Positions 29,178 through 35,361 of a stretch of DNA of 64,000 nt are shown piece by piece. Under the pieces are notes generated by a model. The model ran no database searches. It was not told the DNA's origin and saw nothing but the letters and a program-made list of their open reading frames with translations. The position numbers and the translations under genes were made by a program. The stretch spans positions 186,001 to 250,000 of the forward strand of contig NZ_QMEL01000004.1 in NCBI RefSeq assembly GCF_003390885.1, in the 5' to 3' direction. Origin of the DNA: Pelagibacterium sediminicola (lineage in GTDB: Bacteria > Pseudomonadota > Alphaproteobacteria > Rhizobiales > Devosiaceae). How positions within the stretch are numbered: the stretch's first letter is position 1; each line of letters opens with the position of its first letter.

Positions 29178-31640
29178 TCACATCACCTTCCATATCTCCT
29201 CCGCATACTCCCTGATCGTCCGGTCCGAGGAAAACCACGCCACCCTCGCCGTATTGCGGATGGCCATGGCGTTCCACTTCTCCCGATCCGCCCAAACCGT
29301 GTCCACCGCGCGCTGCGCCTTTGCGTATCCGTCGAAATCGCGCGTCACCATGAACCAGTCGTGATCGTAAAGCCCGTCCATCAGCGGACGGTAACGGGCC
29401 CGGTCGTCGGGCGAAAAGACCCCGCCGGAAATCCCCTCCATCACCTCGGCCAGACCCGGCGAGGCCGCGATGATCTCGCGCGGCGAGCGGCCAAGAGCCC
29501 GGACGTCCTCCACCTCGTCGGCGGAAAGCCCGAAGATGAAGATGTTTTCCGGCCCCACCCGCTCCCGGATCTCGACATTGGCTCCGTCCATCGTCCCGAT
29601 GGTCACCGCGCCATTGAGCGCGAACTTCATGTTGCCCGTGCCCGAGGCTTCCATCCCCGCCGTCGAAATCTGCTCGGACAGGTCCGCCGCCGGGATGATC
29701 GTCTCGGCCAGCGACACGTTGTAGTTGGGCAGGAACACCACCTTCAAAAGCCCCCGCACCGCCGGGTCGTTGTTGATGACCCGCGCCACGTCGTTGATCA
29801 GCTTGATGATGAGCTTGGCGTTCCAGTAGCTCGGCGCGGCCTTGCCCGCGAAGATCTTGACGCGCGGCACCCAGTCCCGTTCCGGGTGCGCGCGGATCAT
29901 GTTGTACTGGGCCACGGCCTCCATGATGTTGAGCAGTTGCCGCTTGTATTCGTGGATGCGCTTGATCTGCACGTCGAACAGCGCATCGGGCGAAACCACA
30001 ACCCCCACCCGCTCTTTTACGAGCGCAGCCAGCGTCTCCTTGTTGCGGCGCTTGACCTTGGCGAACTGGTCCTGAAAACCCTTGTCCTCGGCATGCGCGT
30101 CGAGCTTGATCAACTGCTCGATATCGTCCTTGAACTCGGGCCCGATCCGCTCCGAGATCAGCCTGGTCAGCCCCGGATTGCACTGCATCAGCCAGCGGCG
30201 CGGGGTCACCCCGTTCGTCTTGTTGTTGATGCGCTCGGGATAGAATTTGTGCAGTTCGGCGAACACCGTCTGCTTCATCAATTCGGTATGGAGCGCGGAA
30301 ACGCCGTTGACCGAATGCGAGCCCACAAAGGCCAGTTGCCCCATGCGCAGCCGCCGCACCCCGTTCTCGTCGATCAGCGAGATGGCCGCGATCTGGCTGT
30401 CCGACAGCCCCTTTTCGCGCGCATCGGCCAAAACCATCGCATTGATCGCATAAACGATCTGCATCTGGCGCGGCAAAAGCCGTTCGATGAGCGCCACCGG
30501 CCAGGTTTCCAGCGCCTCTGGCAAAAGCGTGTGATTGGTATAGGCGAAGGTTTTCTGCGTGAGCGACCACGCCTCGTTCCAGCCCAGTCCCTGCACGTCC
30601 ACGAGGATGCGCATCATCTCGGCGACCGAGATCGCGGGATGGGTATCGTTGAGCTGGATCGCCACCTTGTCGGGGAGCGAGCCCAGATCGCCATATTGCT
30701 GCAGGTGCCGCCGCACGATGTCCTGCAAGGACGCCGAGGAGAAAAAGAACTCCTGGCGCAGCCGCAATTCCTGCCCCGCCGGGCTCGAATCCGCCGGATA
30801 GAGCACCCGCGTTATCGCCTCGGCCTTGGCGCTTTCCTCGAGCGCCCCGATATGGTCGCCCGAATTGAACCGGTCGAGCAGGATCGGGTCGATCGGCTGC
30901 GCGCTCCAGAGCCTCAGCGTATTGACCCGCGCCCCGCGCCACCCCACCACCGGCGTATCGAACGCCACGGCATTGAGATGTTCGGCCGGATGCCAGACCT
31001 GCCGCACCGTGCCGTCCGGCTGGGTCACCGGCTCGACAGACCCGCCGAACCCGATTTCATAGGCGCTTTCGCGCCGCTCGAATTCCCAGGGGTTCCCGTG
31101 CGCCAGCCACGTTTCGGGCAATTCCACCTGCCAGCCATCGCTCATTTCCTGCCGGAACATCCCGTTCACATAGCGGATGCCATAGCCATAGGCGGGCACC
31201 TTGACCGTGGACATGGATTCCAGAAAACACGCCGCCAGCCGCCCCAGCCCCCCATTGCCGAGCGCCGCGTCCGGCTCGCGCTCGATCAGTTCGTCGATCG
31301 AGACGTTGAACCCTTCGAGCGCCTCGCGCACCGCATCGGCCATCCCCAGATTGGACATGGCATCGCGCATCAGCCGCCCGATGAGGAATTCGAGACTGAG
31401 GTAATAGACCCGCTTTTGCGAGTTGCGCCACGTATCGCGCGTCGACTCCATCCACTGGTCGATCGCCCGGTCGCGGATGGCAAGGATGGTCGCCGTCAGC
31501 CAGTCGTTGCGCCGCGCAACGATTGGGTCCTTGCCCACCGAATAGGTCAGCTTTTCAAGAATTTCCTCGCGAAGACTCGCAGCGTCAGTGGCGCGCGGAC
31601 TGGGAGTCGGAGCGTCGTAGACAATCGGCTTTTGCGGCAT
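29178..31640 (-). CDS. glgP: Glycogen phosphorylase
   Basis: An 820-residue GT35 enzyme releasing glucose-1-phosphate from glycogen. It has the N-terminal RVYYLSLEFLIGRLM and NGGLGRLAACFLESM motifs. The pyridoxal-phosphate segment EASGTGNMKFALNGAVTIGT holds the Schiff-base lysine. AAGGTG precedes the ATG. It is the first gene of the six-gene glg operon (glgP-B-C-A-pgm-X), so degradative and synthetic enzymes share one transcript. No clear promoter motif was found upstream. Confidence 0.95.
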   Translation of the reverse strand: MPQKPIVYDAPTPSPRATDAASLREEILEKLTYSVGKDPIVARRNDWLTATILAIRDRAIDQWMESTRDTWRNSQKRVYYLSLEFLIGRLMRDAMSNLGMADAVREALEGFNVSIDELIEREPDAALGNGGLGRLAACFLESMSTVKVPAYGYGIRYVNGMFRQEMSDGWQVELPETWLAHGNPWEFERRESAYEIGFGGSVEPVTQPDGTVRQVWHPAEHLNAVAFDTPVVGWRGARVNTLRLWSAQPIDPILLDRFNSGDHIGALEESAKAEAITRVLYPADSSPAGQELRLRQEFFFSSASLQDIVRRHLQQYGDLGSLPDKVAIQLNDTHPAISVAEMMRILVDVQGLGWNEAWSLTQKTFAYTNHTLLPEALETWPVALIERLLPRQMQIVYAINAMVLADAREKGLSDSQIAAISLIDENGVRRLRMGQLAFVGSHSVNGVSALHTELMKQTVFAELHKFYPERINNKTNGVTPRRWLMQCNPGLTRLISERIGPEFKDDIEQLIKLDAHAEDKGFQDQFAKVKRRNKETLAALVKERVGVVVSPDALFDVQIKRIHEYKRQLLNIMEAVAQYNMIRAHPERDWVPRVKIFAGKAAPSYWNAKLIIKLINDVARVINNDPAVRGLLKVVFLPNYNVSLAETIIPAADLSEQISTAGMEASGTGNMKFALNGAVTIGTMDGANVEIRERVGPENIFIFGLSADEVEDVRALGRSPREIIAASPGLAEVMEGISGGVFSPDDRARYRPLMDGLYDHDWFMVTRDFDGYAKAQRAVDTVWADREKWNAMAIRNTARVAWFSSDRTIREYAEEIWKVM

Positions 31641-31743: not shown

Positions 31744-31769
31744 GGAACCAATTGCGGCCTTTGCGTGTT
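31744..31769 (+). promoter_or_regulatory. Degenerate EcfG-type promoter for sRNA 1
   Basis: GGAAC at 31744-31748 is followed after 17 bases by TGTT, one mismatch from the CGTT -10 of the general stress sigma factor. The expected RNA start near 31776 fits the candidate sRNA. Support comes mainly from the adjacent perfect example. Confidence 0.45.
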
Positions 31770-31775
31770 GTTGTA

Positions 31776-31860
31776 CCAGTGATGAAGGCTTCCCCTACCT
31801 TCATTGCGCCCAAGCCCTACCCTGTGGAGGATTGCCGCCCGGCAGTCCTCCACTTTTTTT
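31776..31860 (+). ncRNA. Candidate stress sRNA 1 with C-rich hairpin loop
   Basis: About 85 nt, divergent from glgP. The first hairpin has arms ATGAAGG/CCTTCAT, extended by G-T and G-C pairs to ten, and a nine-base loop CTTCCCCTA. A single-stranded linker TTGCGCCCAAGCCCTACC follows. Then comes a strong terminator with GTGGAGGA/TCCTCCAC arms at 31824-31853 followed by seven T. The C-rich loop could pair with purine-rich ribosome binding sites, as in known CUCC-loop sRNAs. No protein frame with a ribosome binding site spans it. It is probably made under the general stress response. Confidence 0.6.
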
Positions 31861-31871
31861 AATTTTTTCTT

Positions 31872-31896
31872 GGAACCCTATTAGTGGGCGCGCGTT
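31872..31896 (+). promoter_or_regulatory. EcfG-type promoter for sRNA 2
   Basis: GGAAC-N16-CGTT matches the alphaproteobacterial general stress sigma factor promoter exactly. It starts 12 bases after the T-run of sRNA 1. The predicted RNA start is near 31903, just before the second hairpin. Confidence 0.75.
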
Positions 31897-31902
31897 TTCT
31901 TG

Positions 31903-31976
31903 CCGAGCGAAGGCGCTTCCCCCAACCCCTTCGCGACCAAGAAGGCCGGCTGCGAAAGCGCCGGTCTTCTTTTCTT
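31903..31976 (+). ncRNA. Candidate stress sRNA 2, paralogue-like C-rich loop RNA
   Basis: About 74 nt. The first hairpin GCGAAGG/CCTTCGC has a 14-base loop CGCTTCCCCCAACC, and a six-base linker follows. The terminator GAAGGCCGGC/GCCGGTCTTC (ten pairs including one G-U) is followed by TTTTCTTT. The order of parts, the GAAGG/CCTTC stem core and the CTTCCCC loop are shared with sRNA 1, which suggests tandem duplication. The stretch from here to 32145 shows no gene; a GGCGCCC/GGGCGCC hairpin at 32102-32118 lies at the end of the DUF1328 message. Confidence 0.65.
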
Positions 31977-32145
31977 TCGTGTAGAGAAACTGGGCCTTCC
32001 TTGGCCAGATCGTTTCAACCTTAACGGAAACAATCGTCTTTTGATCTGTAGGGCGGTGACGGGGTTTTCGGGAGTCACACTTGAATGGCGCATATGATGG
32101 CGGCGCCCCATGGGCGCCACCGCTGAAATCGATGATACGGTTCCG

Positions 32146-32310
32146 TCAGGCTCGCCGGCCAAGACCGAAGATCAGCCCGATTACCATGGCGACCAGGAAC
32201 ACGAAGAACAGAATCTGCGCAATCGAGGTGGCTGCGCCGGCAACACCGGTAAACCCGAGCACCCCGGCAATGATTGCGATAACCAGAAAGGTCAGAGCCC
32301 ATCCAAGCAT
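32146..32310 (-). CDS. DUF1328 small membrane protein
   Basis: A 54-residue protein with two hydrophobic helices ([20 protein letters not shown] and [18 protein letters not shown]), the size and pattern of the YtjA/DUF1328 family. I chose the ATG at 32310 because GGGAG lies eight bases upstream. The in-frame ATG at 32343 sits at the -10 of an EcfG promoter and would precede the RNA start. The function is unknown; the family is often stress-induced. Confidence 0.82.
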
Positions 32311-32346: not shown

Positions 32347-32372
32347 AACGTCAGGACCCGCGCGACAGTTCC
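32347..32372 (-). promoter_or_regulatory. EcfG-type promoter of the DUF1328 gene
   Basis: GGAAC-N17-CGTT on the minus strand. The predicted RNA start is near 32337, about 27 nt before the ATG at 32310. Confidence 0.72.
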
Positions 32373-32408: not shown

Positions 32409-33206
32409 TCAGGCCGCCTGCTCCATTTGCTCCGAAAAGAACAACACCTGGCTGACCAGAGCCTTGACCATGTCGGGCTGGAAAGGCTTGGTGACGAGGA
32501 ACGCAGGCTCGGGCCGCTCCCCGGTCAGCAACCGCTCGGGGAATGCTGTAATGAAGATCACCGGCACGCTCACCGCGCGCAGAATGTCGTTGACCGCATC
32601 GATCCCCGAACTTCCGTCCGCAAGCTGGATATCGGCTAGCACCAGACCCGGCCGCCGCTCGTTGAACAGCTTGATCGCCTCGTTATGGGTGCGGGCAACG
32701 CCGGTCACCGAATGGCCCAGCGATTCCACCATGCTCTCGATATCCATGGCGATCAGCGGCTCGTCCTCGATGATGAGCACGCTGGTTGCCACCTGCTGCG
32801 CCATTTCGCGGGCCGCCTCATCGATGAGGCCGGAGAACTCCTCGTCTGGGACGCCCAGTATATAAGCCCCCTCCTCGTGGGAAAACCGCTCCACCGCCAA
32901 CAGCAAGAAAGCCTGGCGGGGCAGCGGGGCGATGGCCTTGAGGCTGCGCCGTGCCTGGTTTTCCCAGCGGTCCTCGGTCGGGGGCAGGTCATGCAGATTG
33001 ATGTCGACCGACTTCCAGAGTTGGCAGAATATCCGATAGAGCGCCACCTTGTGGTCCACGTTCTCGGGGAAGATGGACCTGTCCGTTATCAGGGCTTCGA
33101 GCGTCGCCGACACATAGGCGTCACCACTCGACTGGCTGCCGGTCAAAGAGCGCGCAAACCGCCGCAGATAGGGTAAATGCGGCGCGATCAACTCGGCAAG
33201 ATTCAT
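32409..33206 (-). CDS. phyR: General stress response regulator PhyR
   Basis: A 265-residue anti-anti-sigma response regulator. The N-terminal sigma-like domain (residues 1-130, for example [21 protein letters not shown]) mimics EcfG. The C-terminal receiver domain has acidic residues E147-D148, phospho-acceptor D192 ([11 protein letters not shown]) and the lysine of VTKPFQP. When phosphorylated it binds NepR and frees EcfG. It is divergent from nepR-ecfG with its own EcfG promoter, giving positive feedback. No partner histidine kinase is in the window. Confidence 0.95.
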
Positions 33207-33268: not shown

Positions 33269-33293
33269 AACGATTGAGCACCGGGAAAGTTCC
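33269..33293 (-). promoter_or_regulatory. EcfG-type promoter of phyR
   Basis: GGAAC-N16-CGTT on the minus strand, 62 nt upstream of the phyR ATG. Its -35 is only nine bases from the divergent nepR -35. Confidence 0.8.
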
Positions 33294-33302
33294 AGAACCA
33301 TT

Positions 33303-33327
33303 GGAACTTTTTTTGCTGGCCGGCGTT
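33303..33327 (+). promoter_or_regulatory. EcfG-type promoter of nepR-ecfG
   Basis: GGAAC-N16-CGTT with a run of seven T after the -35. The predicted RNA start is near 33335, about 30 nt before the nepR GTG. It makes the sigma factor autoregulated. Confidence 0.82.
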
Positions 33328-33365: not shown

Positions 33366-33572
33366 GTGACACAAATGACTAGTAGCAGGAAGCAACCGGC
33401 TGAGCCCGTGGAAACACCAGCGAAGCCGGGCCCGCGCCTGAGCGAGGAATCGCAGGCCTTTATCGGCCTCAAGCTTCGCGAGCTTTACGACGACGTCGTC
33501 GCCGAGCCGGTGCCGGATCGTCTCCTTGAGCTGCTGAACAAGCTCGGGGCCAAAGACGACGAAACCCGTTGA
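33366..33572 (+). CDS. nepR: Anti-sigma factor NepR
   Basis: A 68-residue anti-sigma factor that holds EcfG inactive until PhyR is phosphorylated. The core helix region AFIGLKLRELYDDVVAEPVPDRLLELLNKL is typical of NepR in length and spacing (quoted here only as a 30-residue span at residues 32-61, key residues GLKLRELY and EPVPDRL). The start is GTG at 33366 with GGGGA seven bases upstream; an ATG at 33375 is a weaker choice. It is followed by ecfG after 13 nt. Confidence 0.92.
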   Translation: MTQMTSSRKQPAEPVETPAKPGPRLSEESQAFIGLKLRELYDDVVAEPVPDRLLELLNKLGAKDDETR

Positions 33573-33585
33573 GGTGAGCCCGGCC

Positions 33586-34137
33586 ATGACTGCATATGAT
33601 TTTCGTTCCGAACTTCTGTCCGTCATTCCGAACCTGCGAGCCTTCGCCATGTCGCTCGTCGGCGCCGCCGACCGCGCCGACGATCTCGTGCAGGAAACGC
33701 TGGTGCGCGCCTGGGACAAACGCGACACCTTTACCCCCGGCACCAATCTGAAGGGCTGGTTGTTCACCATCCTGCGCAACGAATTCTACAGCCAGATGCG
33801 CAAGCGCAAGCGCGAGGTGTCCGATCCCGAAGGGGCGATGGCCGCACGGCTCTCGACACACCCTGAACAGGTCGGAAAGCTCGATATGGAAGATTTCAAG
33901 ACAGCGATCAGCTCCCTGCCCCATGATCAGCGCGAAGCGCTGATCCTCGTGGGCGCCTCGGGATTCTCCTATGAGGAGGCCGCCGAGATCTGCGGCTGCG
34001 CCATCGGCACGATCAAGAGCCGCGTCAGCCGTGCCCGCGCCCAGCTCGCCACGACCCTCAAGCTCGAGGGCGATGGCGAGTTCGGGCCCGATGCGGTCGC
34101 GGTGGGCGTGATGAACTTTTCCTCGCCCGCCGCCTGA
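33586..34137 (+). CDS. ecfG: General stress response sigma factor EcfG
   Basis: A 183-residue ECF15-group sigma factor. Region 2 reads AFAMSLVGAADRADDLVQET and region 4 reads FSYEEAAEICGCAIGTIKSR. It directs RNA polymerase to GGAAC-N16/17-CGTT promoters, of which at least seven lie within 5 kb. GAGGTGA precedes the ATG at 33586; a GTG at 33574 is inside that ribosome binding site. It shares a transcript with nepR. Confidence 0.94.
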   Translation: MTAYDFRSELLSVIPNLRAFAMSLVGAADRADDLVQETLVRAWDKRDTFTPGTNLKGWLFTILRNEFYSQMRKRKREVSDPEGAMAARLSTHPEQVGKLDMEDFKTAISSLPHDQREALILVGASGFSYEEAAEICGCAIGTIKSRVSRARAQLATTLKLEGDGEFGPDAVAVGVMNFSSPAA

Positions 34138-34251: not shown

Positions 34252-34596
34252 ATGGCCCGTGCTGCAACGACGACCCGTCCACTCAAGACCGATGGCAACG
34301 GAAAGGATTCCGCAAAGGATCTCGATGTGGAGATCGCTGCCCTGCGCGAAGATATTGCCGCCATCACATCGACCCTGGGCAACATTGCCAAACAGCGCAC
34401 CAATGAAGCGAAATCCGAAGTGGAACGCGCCAGCCGCAAAGCCGTAGCCAAGGGCGAGGAAGCGCTGGAAACCGCCCAGCAGAATTTCGAGCACGCCGAG
34501 GACGAACTCAAGACCATGATCCGCGACAAACCGATTACCTCGGTGCTCGTTGCGGCGGGCGTGGGGTATCTGCTCTCGAAGGTCCTGAGGGCATAG
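34252..34596 (+). CDS. DUF883/ElaB-like membrane-anchored stress protein
   Basis: A 114-residue protein. The N-terminal charged region and long amphipathic helix (residues 24-85, rich in A, E, K) are followed by DKPITSVLVAAGVGYLLSKV, a C-terminal membrane anchor. This is the layout of the ElaB/YqjD/DUF883 family, which associates with ribosomes and membrane in stationary phase in enterobacteria. GGGAGG precedes the ATG. It is probably co-transcribed with the following membrane gene, three bases apart. Confidence 0.85.
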   Translation: MARAATTTRPLKTDGNGKDSAKDLDVEIAALREDIAAITSTLGNIAKQRTNEAKSEVERASRKAVAKGEEALETAQQNFEHAEDELKTMIRDKPITSVLVAAGVGYLLSKVLRA

Positions 34597-35087: not shown

Positions 35088-35312
35088 TCATCGTCCGTCA
35101 TTGGCAAGTGAATTGAGCTTCAGCAGCTTTTCCAGCTCCAGATCGGCATCCCGCAACGCCCCCTTGTGCTCGGGCGCTGCGTAATGCTCCTTGTAGCTCT
35201 TGAGCAGTTCGATCTTGCGCACATTCGAGAGCGTGGCGTCGGCGGTGATCTCGCTGGGCTTGCGTGAATCGCTCCCCACATCGAACCCCGGCAATATGTT
35301 CTTGTCGGTCAT
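35088..35312 (-). CDS. Conserved small stress-region protein, unknown
   Basis: A 74-residue soluble, charged protein (MTDKNILPGFDVGSDSRKP, then a helical region rich in E, K and L). AAAGGAGAG lies just before the ATG, and an EcfG promoter lies 25-49 nt upstream. I do not recognise a named domain. Its promoter places it in the general stress regulon. Confidence 0.7.
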   Translation of the reverse strand: MTDKNILPGFDVGSDSRKPSEITADATLSNVRKIELLKSYKEHYAAPEHKGALRDADLELEKLLKLNSLANDGR

Positions 35313-35336: not shown

Positions 35337-35361
35337 AACGCCAGGGGCCGGGGCCCGTTCC
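35337..35361 (-). promoter_or_regulatory. EcfG-type promoter of the 74-aa gene
   Basis: GGAAC-N16-CGTT on the minus strand, 25 nt before the ATG at 35312. The spacer is almost all G and C. Confidence 0.75.

Follow-up and report, generated by a model that had tools for sequence, protein, structure and literature searches.

Does the interval between glgP and the stress-response genes phyR-nepR-ecfG of Pelagibacterium sediminicola (Devosiaceae, Hyphomicrobiales) encode two small RNAs (sRNAs), and are they of a kind already described? The original prediction placed two units there with the same layout, an EcfG-type promoter followed by a hairpin and a terminator, and the layout was confirmed by pattern scan, folding and conservation (Table 1). 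We consider it probable that units A and B are separately transcribed, noncoding, intrinsically terminated GsrN-like sRNAs that are made by EcfG under stress and pair with G-rich mRNA. This reading draws on promoter conservation, structure, covariation, loop invariance, position and the lack of a reading frame shared by all genomes; we infer transcription, dependence on EcfG, base pairing and targets. The window is the whole stretch of DNA analysed, 64 kb long. Its genome (G000) and 12 relatives make up the genus set of 13, which includes P. limicola (G002), P. montanilacus (G003), P. lentulum (G004), P. xiamenense (G005), P. luteolum (G006) and P. lacus (G010).

Table 1. Units A and B and the neighbouring genes, in window coordinates.
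Feature	Position	Strand	Remarks
Unit A overall	31744-31860	+	EcfG-type promoter, 5′ hairpin with C-rich loop, terminator hairpin
EcfG-type promoter of A	31744-31769	+	GGAAC-N17-TGTT, one mismatch from CGTT
sRNA A	31775-31860	+	Predicted transcript of ~85 nt; start placed from the promoter
5′ hairpin of A	31779-31807	+	Stem ATGAAGG/CCTTCAT; loop CUUCCCCUA at 31789-31797
Linker of A	31808-31823	+	Single-stranded, C-rich; AAGCCCU invariant in 13/13
Intrinsic terminator of A	31824-31860	+	With U run; folding and simple terminator scan
Unit B overall	31872-31978	+	EcfG-type promoter, 5′ hairpin with C-rich loop, terminator hairpin
EcfG-type promoter of B	31872-31896	+	Perfect GGAAC-N16-CGTT; pattern scan
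sRNA B	31903-31978	+	Predicted transcript of ~75 nt; start placed from the promoter
5′ hairpin of B	31907-31934	+	Stem GCGAAGG/CCTTCGC; loop containing GCUUCCCCCAACC
Terminator of B	31939-31978	+	Hairpin (31939-31971) and U-rich tail; folding, covariation in relatives
glgP	29178-31640	-	Glycogen phosphorylase (PF00343); divergent from unit A
DUF1328 gene	32146-32310	-	Small protein (PF07043); EcfG-type site 32347-32372
phyR	32409-33206	-	Pfam PhyR_sigma2, PhyR_sigma-like, Response_reg; EcfG-type site 33269-33293
nepR	33366-33572	+	PF18557; EcfG-type site 33303-33327
ecfG	33574-34137	+	Sigma factor; Pfam sigma-70 regions 2 and 4

EcfG-type promoters are concentrated at this locus. The window holds eight perfect GGAAC-N16/17-CGTT sites against 1.02 expected (0/100 shuffles reach eight), and seven of them fall within 31.8-36.6 kb. 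By position, six of the eight lie upstream of B, the DUF1328 gene, phyR, nepR-ecfG, a gene at 34252 (a small protein without a Pfam match) and a PRC-barrel gene; the seventh clustered site (35337-35361) may lie upstream of a start at 35312. The pattern scan agreed with the original prediction that the promoter of B is perfect and that of A has one mismatch. As in GsrN-like RNAs, a near-consensus sigma-EcfG site stands directly upstream of all 25 units in the genus set (13 A and 12 B), with GGAAC kept in every one, 16-17 nt ahead of the second element. That element is CGTT in 15, CATT in nine and TGTT in one. It is mostly CGTT in A (11, with TGTT in this genome and CATT in one other; n = 13) and CATT in eight and CGTT in four of the 12 B units. 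Over distinct sequences the GGAAC columns each carry 2 bits, and most columns of the flanks and spacer carry 0.7 bits or less. The C after GGAAC is conserved, and most of the remaining flank and spacer columns vary freely.

Both units fold as hairpin plus terminator, and RNAalifold returned the same two elements from both alignments. The fold of A (-37.2 kcal/mol, z -7.15) was matched by 0/200 shuffles and that of B (-33.6 kcal/mol, z -3.42) by 1/200. A simple terminator scan found one terminator, that of A, and missed that of B; 1.1 were expected in shuffles. In the A alignment 95.3% of the cells are paired and the covariation score is 0.252 (0.166 shuffled, at most 0.133 when slid); for B the values are 93.3% and 0.311 (0.178 shuffled, at most 0.231 slid). 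Both scores exceed 500/500 shuffles and all slid controls. Over the 13 genomes, three of the 11 pairs in the 5′ stem of A changed on both sides. Further pair types in A were no more numerous than in shuffles (17 vs. 16.5; 269/500 shuffles as high), and in B six pairs changed on both sides, a count reached by 29/500 shuffles and surpassed (nine) when the alignment was slid by -1. The loops are fixed at their cores, CCCCUA in A (13/13 genomes) and UCCCCCA in B (12/12 B units). That the loop letters are invariant while the stems vary argues that a partner reads the loops themselves. The rest of the loop is less constant: A has CGCCCC in 10 of the 12 relatives, TCCCCC in one and CCCCCC in one, and the 11 other genomes with B have UUUCCCCC (10) or UAUCCCCC (one). 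The original prediction gave both loops the motif CTTCCCC. This is correct for this genome, but the motif is peculiar to it and absent from both loops in the other 12 genomes.

The proposal that the hairpins are conserved in relatives held for A in 13/13 and for B in 12/13 genomes of the genus. A BLASTN of a 237-base stretch matched 13/13 genus genomes (weakest 1.3e-7); among the matches listed, the best E-value in the other 48 genomes was 2.3e-4, and the overall tally of 56/61 genomes at E ≤ 1 is mostly chance. A covariance model of unit A (R1) scores 79.4 bits on the unit's own sequence, which is part of the model. It matched 13/136 genomes of the family at E ≤ 0.1, all in this genus, with no match at that threshold in the other 123. 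In a sample of 397 genomes from the order the model gave six matches, again all in this genus. These large searches were run with strict filters, by which weak matches are lost. When named genomes were scanned for the pattern of the conserved A core, eight stretches were returned, in six named Pelagibacterium species and two MAGs (Pelagibacterium MAG SP179 and Rhizobiales bacterium UBA3584). The corresponding model of unit B (R2; 65.5 bits on its own sequence, also part of the model) matched 12/13 genomes of the genus, each with an E-value of at most 4.3e-13, and gave no match in P. lacus. In P. lacus (L004/L040) a short sequence after A resembles, by eye, a remnant of the B stem without promoter or loop.

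In all 13 genomes the pair is next to the stress-response genes, with A between glgP and phyR-nepR-ecfG in 13/13 and B next to A in 12/13. The gene order in the 12 relatives is glgC-glgB-glgP, A, B (11/12), a histidine kinase (12/12), DUF1328, phyR and nepR-ecfG, with glgP adjoining A in all 12 and DUF1328 matched at the locus in 10/12. The kinase is of the HWE type (PF07536). In 12/12 relatives it separates the sRNA pair from DUF1328/phyR, but it is absent here (31980-32146). The best match to it in this genome reaches 36% over residues 139-265 and is located at another place. Judging from these matches, this species seems to have lost its stress-locus kinase.

The original prediction took A and B to be paralogous, and the model comparisons do not bear this out. 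R1 scores 17.7 bits on B (E 0.00042 in 501 bases, E 0.25 over 303 kb) and R2 scores 10.9 bits on A (E 0.0024 in 501 bases). With R1 the terminator of A itself, read on the reverse strand, reaches 17.2 bits (501 bases); thus, such cross-scores can come from terminator pairs alone. A and B have a layout in common, and paralogy by descent is not shown by these sequences.

GsrN of Caulobacter offers a precedent. In the available part of its description (PMC5869019), GsrN is EcfG-controlled, usually near the stress locus, and pairs with G-rich mRNA through a C-rich 5′ loop; the pairing with the katG leader is backed by a compensatory mutation, and katG expression goes up. In the same part of the source, R. 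etli, S. meliloti, Brucella, Agrobacterium, Rhodopseudomonas and Bradyrhizobium are proposed to have GsrN-like RNAs, which beyond Caulobacter are mostly predictions. According to it, GsrN and GsrN-like RNAs combine an EcfG-type promoter, a position usually near ecfG/nepR/phyR, a 5′ C-rich loop and a terminator, and so does the pair. Besides the promoters described above, proximity to ecfG/nepR/phyR was found in 12/12 relatives and the window, both units are predicted to expose a C-rich loop close to the 5′ end, and a 3′ intrinsic terminator is present in A (fold and scan) and in B (fold and covariation; the scan misses it). The likeness is one of layout. Here there are two tandem RNAs with different loops, by model in one genus only, whereas the GsrN text, so far as available, describes one gsrN homologue per genome (PMC5869019). 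A tandem arrangement is known from CcsR1-4 of Rhodobacter sphaeroides, which the accessible portion of the source (PMC10253847) describes as stress-induced sRNAs that share one RpoHI/RpoHII promoter with a DUF1127 gene, are co-transcribed with it and are cleaved by RNase E. Units A and B each have their own promoter and terminator hairpin instead; we found separate GGAAC promoters, not a single RpoH-type promoter ahead of a DUF1127 gene and sRNAs, and the neighbours are glgP and DUF1328. The covariance search proposed in the original prediction placed R1 in this genus only, and Rfam 15 gave no match at the gathering score in the window or in 20 loci, of which 13 carry the pair. With E up to 10, the best of five Rfam matches was CbSR12 (E 0.11; 20.1 bits, where the cut-off is 195). 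The claim that such a pair had not been described holds in part. Single GsrN-like RNAs by this locus are already published, and the pair is a tandem variant of them; a description of the tandem pair itself was not found in the open-licence literature. The apparently new element is the tandem arrangement, with two loops that are distinct and fixed, by model confined to one genus.

GsrN-like RNAs represent a post-transcriptional arm of the alphaproteobacterial stress response. On our reading, under stress PhyR would free EcfG from NepR, and EcfG would then read both GGAAC/CGTT-type promoters. Each RNA would display its C-rich loop on the 5′ hairpin and pair with G-rich stretches of mRNA, altering translation or stability as GsrN does in Caulobacter. 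With the different invariant loops, CCCCUA and UCCCCCA, one sigma factor could address two target sets. A conserved pair under one sigma factor in a cultured genus raises the question of why there are two C-loop RNAs and whether they have any targets in common.

The search for complementary targets that had been proposed gave different results for the two loops. Complements of the A loop before start codons were not enriched (75 matches vs. 84 for the reversed pattern). For the B loop, 53 rows had a complement before ATG, of which eight are B's own antisense and some are seeds counted with two ATGs. The controls gave two (own pattern reversed), nine (reversed seed before ATG) and 12 (seed before GTA; four of these also with ATG and one B antisense). 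Many of the B rows lie away from real gene starts, and G-rich start regions could account for the B excess without any sRNA. When downstream frames of at least 60 amino acids were clustered (70 loci for A, 48 for B), no group had more than three members, and the only group of three was B's own antisense. We found no conserved mRNA target by seed searches, clustering or pairing with neighbouring genes. A candidate for A, fliM, was rejected: GTAGGGGCG stands directly before the start in this genome and P. lentulum, i.e., in 2/13 fliM starts only, and P. montanilacus has it with one extra G. For B, TTGGGGGAA, a match to the loop, occurs ~30 nt upstream of the same protein in two genomes (G001, L117; G007, L293). 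We read this protein as RpoN, a possible second lead for B.

The other lead is nepR. Three RNA segments were paired with 11 neighbouring genes (33 tests), and the most extreme value came from the B loop and nepR (mean z -1.93 over 12 genomes, among which several are near copies). On approximate gene calls this pairing ranked 4th of 170 gene starts in G007 and 6th of 167 in P. limicola, and 0/30 shuffled loops were as good in either genome. The start region of nepR has GTGGGGTAAAC or CGGGGGAA before GTG in several species. The pairing is weak in this genome (-11.6), P. xiamenense (-9.8) and P. lentulum (-4.6), and in P. montanilacus the best B-loop site is away from the nepR start region. Predicted as the best of 33 tests and weak in three genomes, nepR is only a lead as a B target. 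On these pairing predictions it is improbable that B, as a product of EcfG, binds by its loop the start region of nepR, the mRNA for the anti-sigma factor of EcfG, and thereby acts back on the stress switch.

Other explanations of the two units are less probable. B, and perhaps A, might be no regulator at all but mainly a terminator for transcripts from the kinase/DUF1328/phyR side on the opposite strand, with 5′ hairpins that have no role of their own. The kinase gene in the 12 relatives is indeed on the opposite strand and ends directly after the sRNA pair, and the terminator hairpins of the pair fold on the reverse strand too. A terminator, however, needs neither a GGAAC promoter conserved in 12/12 B units nor an invariant unpaired UCCCCCA loop, and we regard this explanation as distinctly improbable. 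Small peptides are a far weaker proposal still. A 26-codon ATG frame does run across A in this genome, but no frame over A was found in all 13 genomes and 3/13 have none of at least 12 codons; close relatives share segments of frames, with different starts and lengths, and the loop and linker of A carry indels of 1-2 nt. We give the peptides next to no credence.

If the units are regulatory RNAs, the C-rich loops might bind a protein or another small RNA, as a sponge, and not mRNAs. Such a role would suit loops that are invariant and yet have no conserved mRNA target that we could find. The GsrN precedent, so far as the available text goes, is one of mRNA pairing, and the B-loop complements before ATG outnumber their controls, so that we think a sponge unlikely, though the least so of the alternatives. 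The units could also belong to the alpha-r14/cuckoo (NfeR1, CcsR) anti-Shine-Dalgarno family, to which the original prediction likened them along with GsrN. The available part of the NfeR1 source (PMC10746234) describes alpha-r14 members as having three hairpins, each with an identical CCUCCUCCC, and as raised upon salt shock. C-rich unpaired motifs meant for Shine-Dalgarno regions are common to them and the pair, and tandem stress-induced copies are known in CcsR1-4. Neither A nor B contains CCUCCUCCC, however; each has one C-rich hairpin plus a terminator and not three hairpins, each has its own promoter, and Rfam gave no match at the gathering score. We therefore rejected membership of this family, which has hardly any probability left; the likeness to GsrN, in design, is supported. 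Units A and B as GsrN-like sRNAs remain our preferred reading.

In the family as a whole, R2 matched 89/136 genomes at E ≤ 0.1, with 1.4e-6 as the best E-value outside Pelagibacterium. Most of the loci examined among these (L068-L085, without L074) resemble plain terminators. At least four (L069 in G071, L077 in G077, L078 in G078 and L080 in G066), from another Devosiaceae genus, have a hairpin with a C-rich loop ahead of the terminator. In none of the loci in this range do the 120 nt ahead of the C-rich motif contain an EcfG-type site. At 20 phyR loci of other genera R1 gave nothing below E 0.17, and the best R2 match was L264 (E 0.0034, 21.3 bits; the next was 0.079).

Sister genera within the Devosiaceae have a C-rich hairpin and terminator in 7/11 loci (L256, L259, L261, L262, L263, L264 and L265), where a DUF3309-type gene stands on one side and a small gene that has an EcfG-type site of its own on the other. 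Six of the seven stretches contain the whole DUF3309 gene and the seventh only its end; Pfam PF11752 was tested for L264. Of 18 predicted pairs, 14 changed on both sides (seven sequences, with some alignment slippage), and Rfam gave no match in the seven loci. A model built from them (R3) matched 78/136 family genomes in 6/16 genera at E ≤ 0.001 and none of the 13 Pelagibacterium genomes at that threshold. Among the five loci with 900 nt of upstream sequence, four have an EcfG-type site 440-526 nt upstream. The hairpin is likely part of the 3′ UTR of an EcfG-type operon. Among the matches listed, R3 reached two of the 12 B units, that of P. limicola with 26.3 bits (E 0.0057), where an unrelated place in the same region scored 26.7 in the same search, and that of G001 with 17.6 bits (E 0.32). 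By these weak cross-scores B and the sister-genus hairpin may be related. The hairpin after DUF3309 raises the question of switching between standalone and 3′ UTR forms within one family.

We scanned 15-17 kb around phyR in 20 genomes from other genera for GGAAC promoters with a terminator after them; of the 11 matches, eight look by eye like genes or chance. Three other families of the order each have a candidate single RNA with an EcfG-type promoter and a C-rich loop in the vicinity of phyR (L270 at -8819 in G050, L272 at +3704 in G054 and L273 at -9264 in G058). By eye, these look GsrN-like in their layout.
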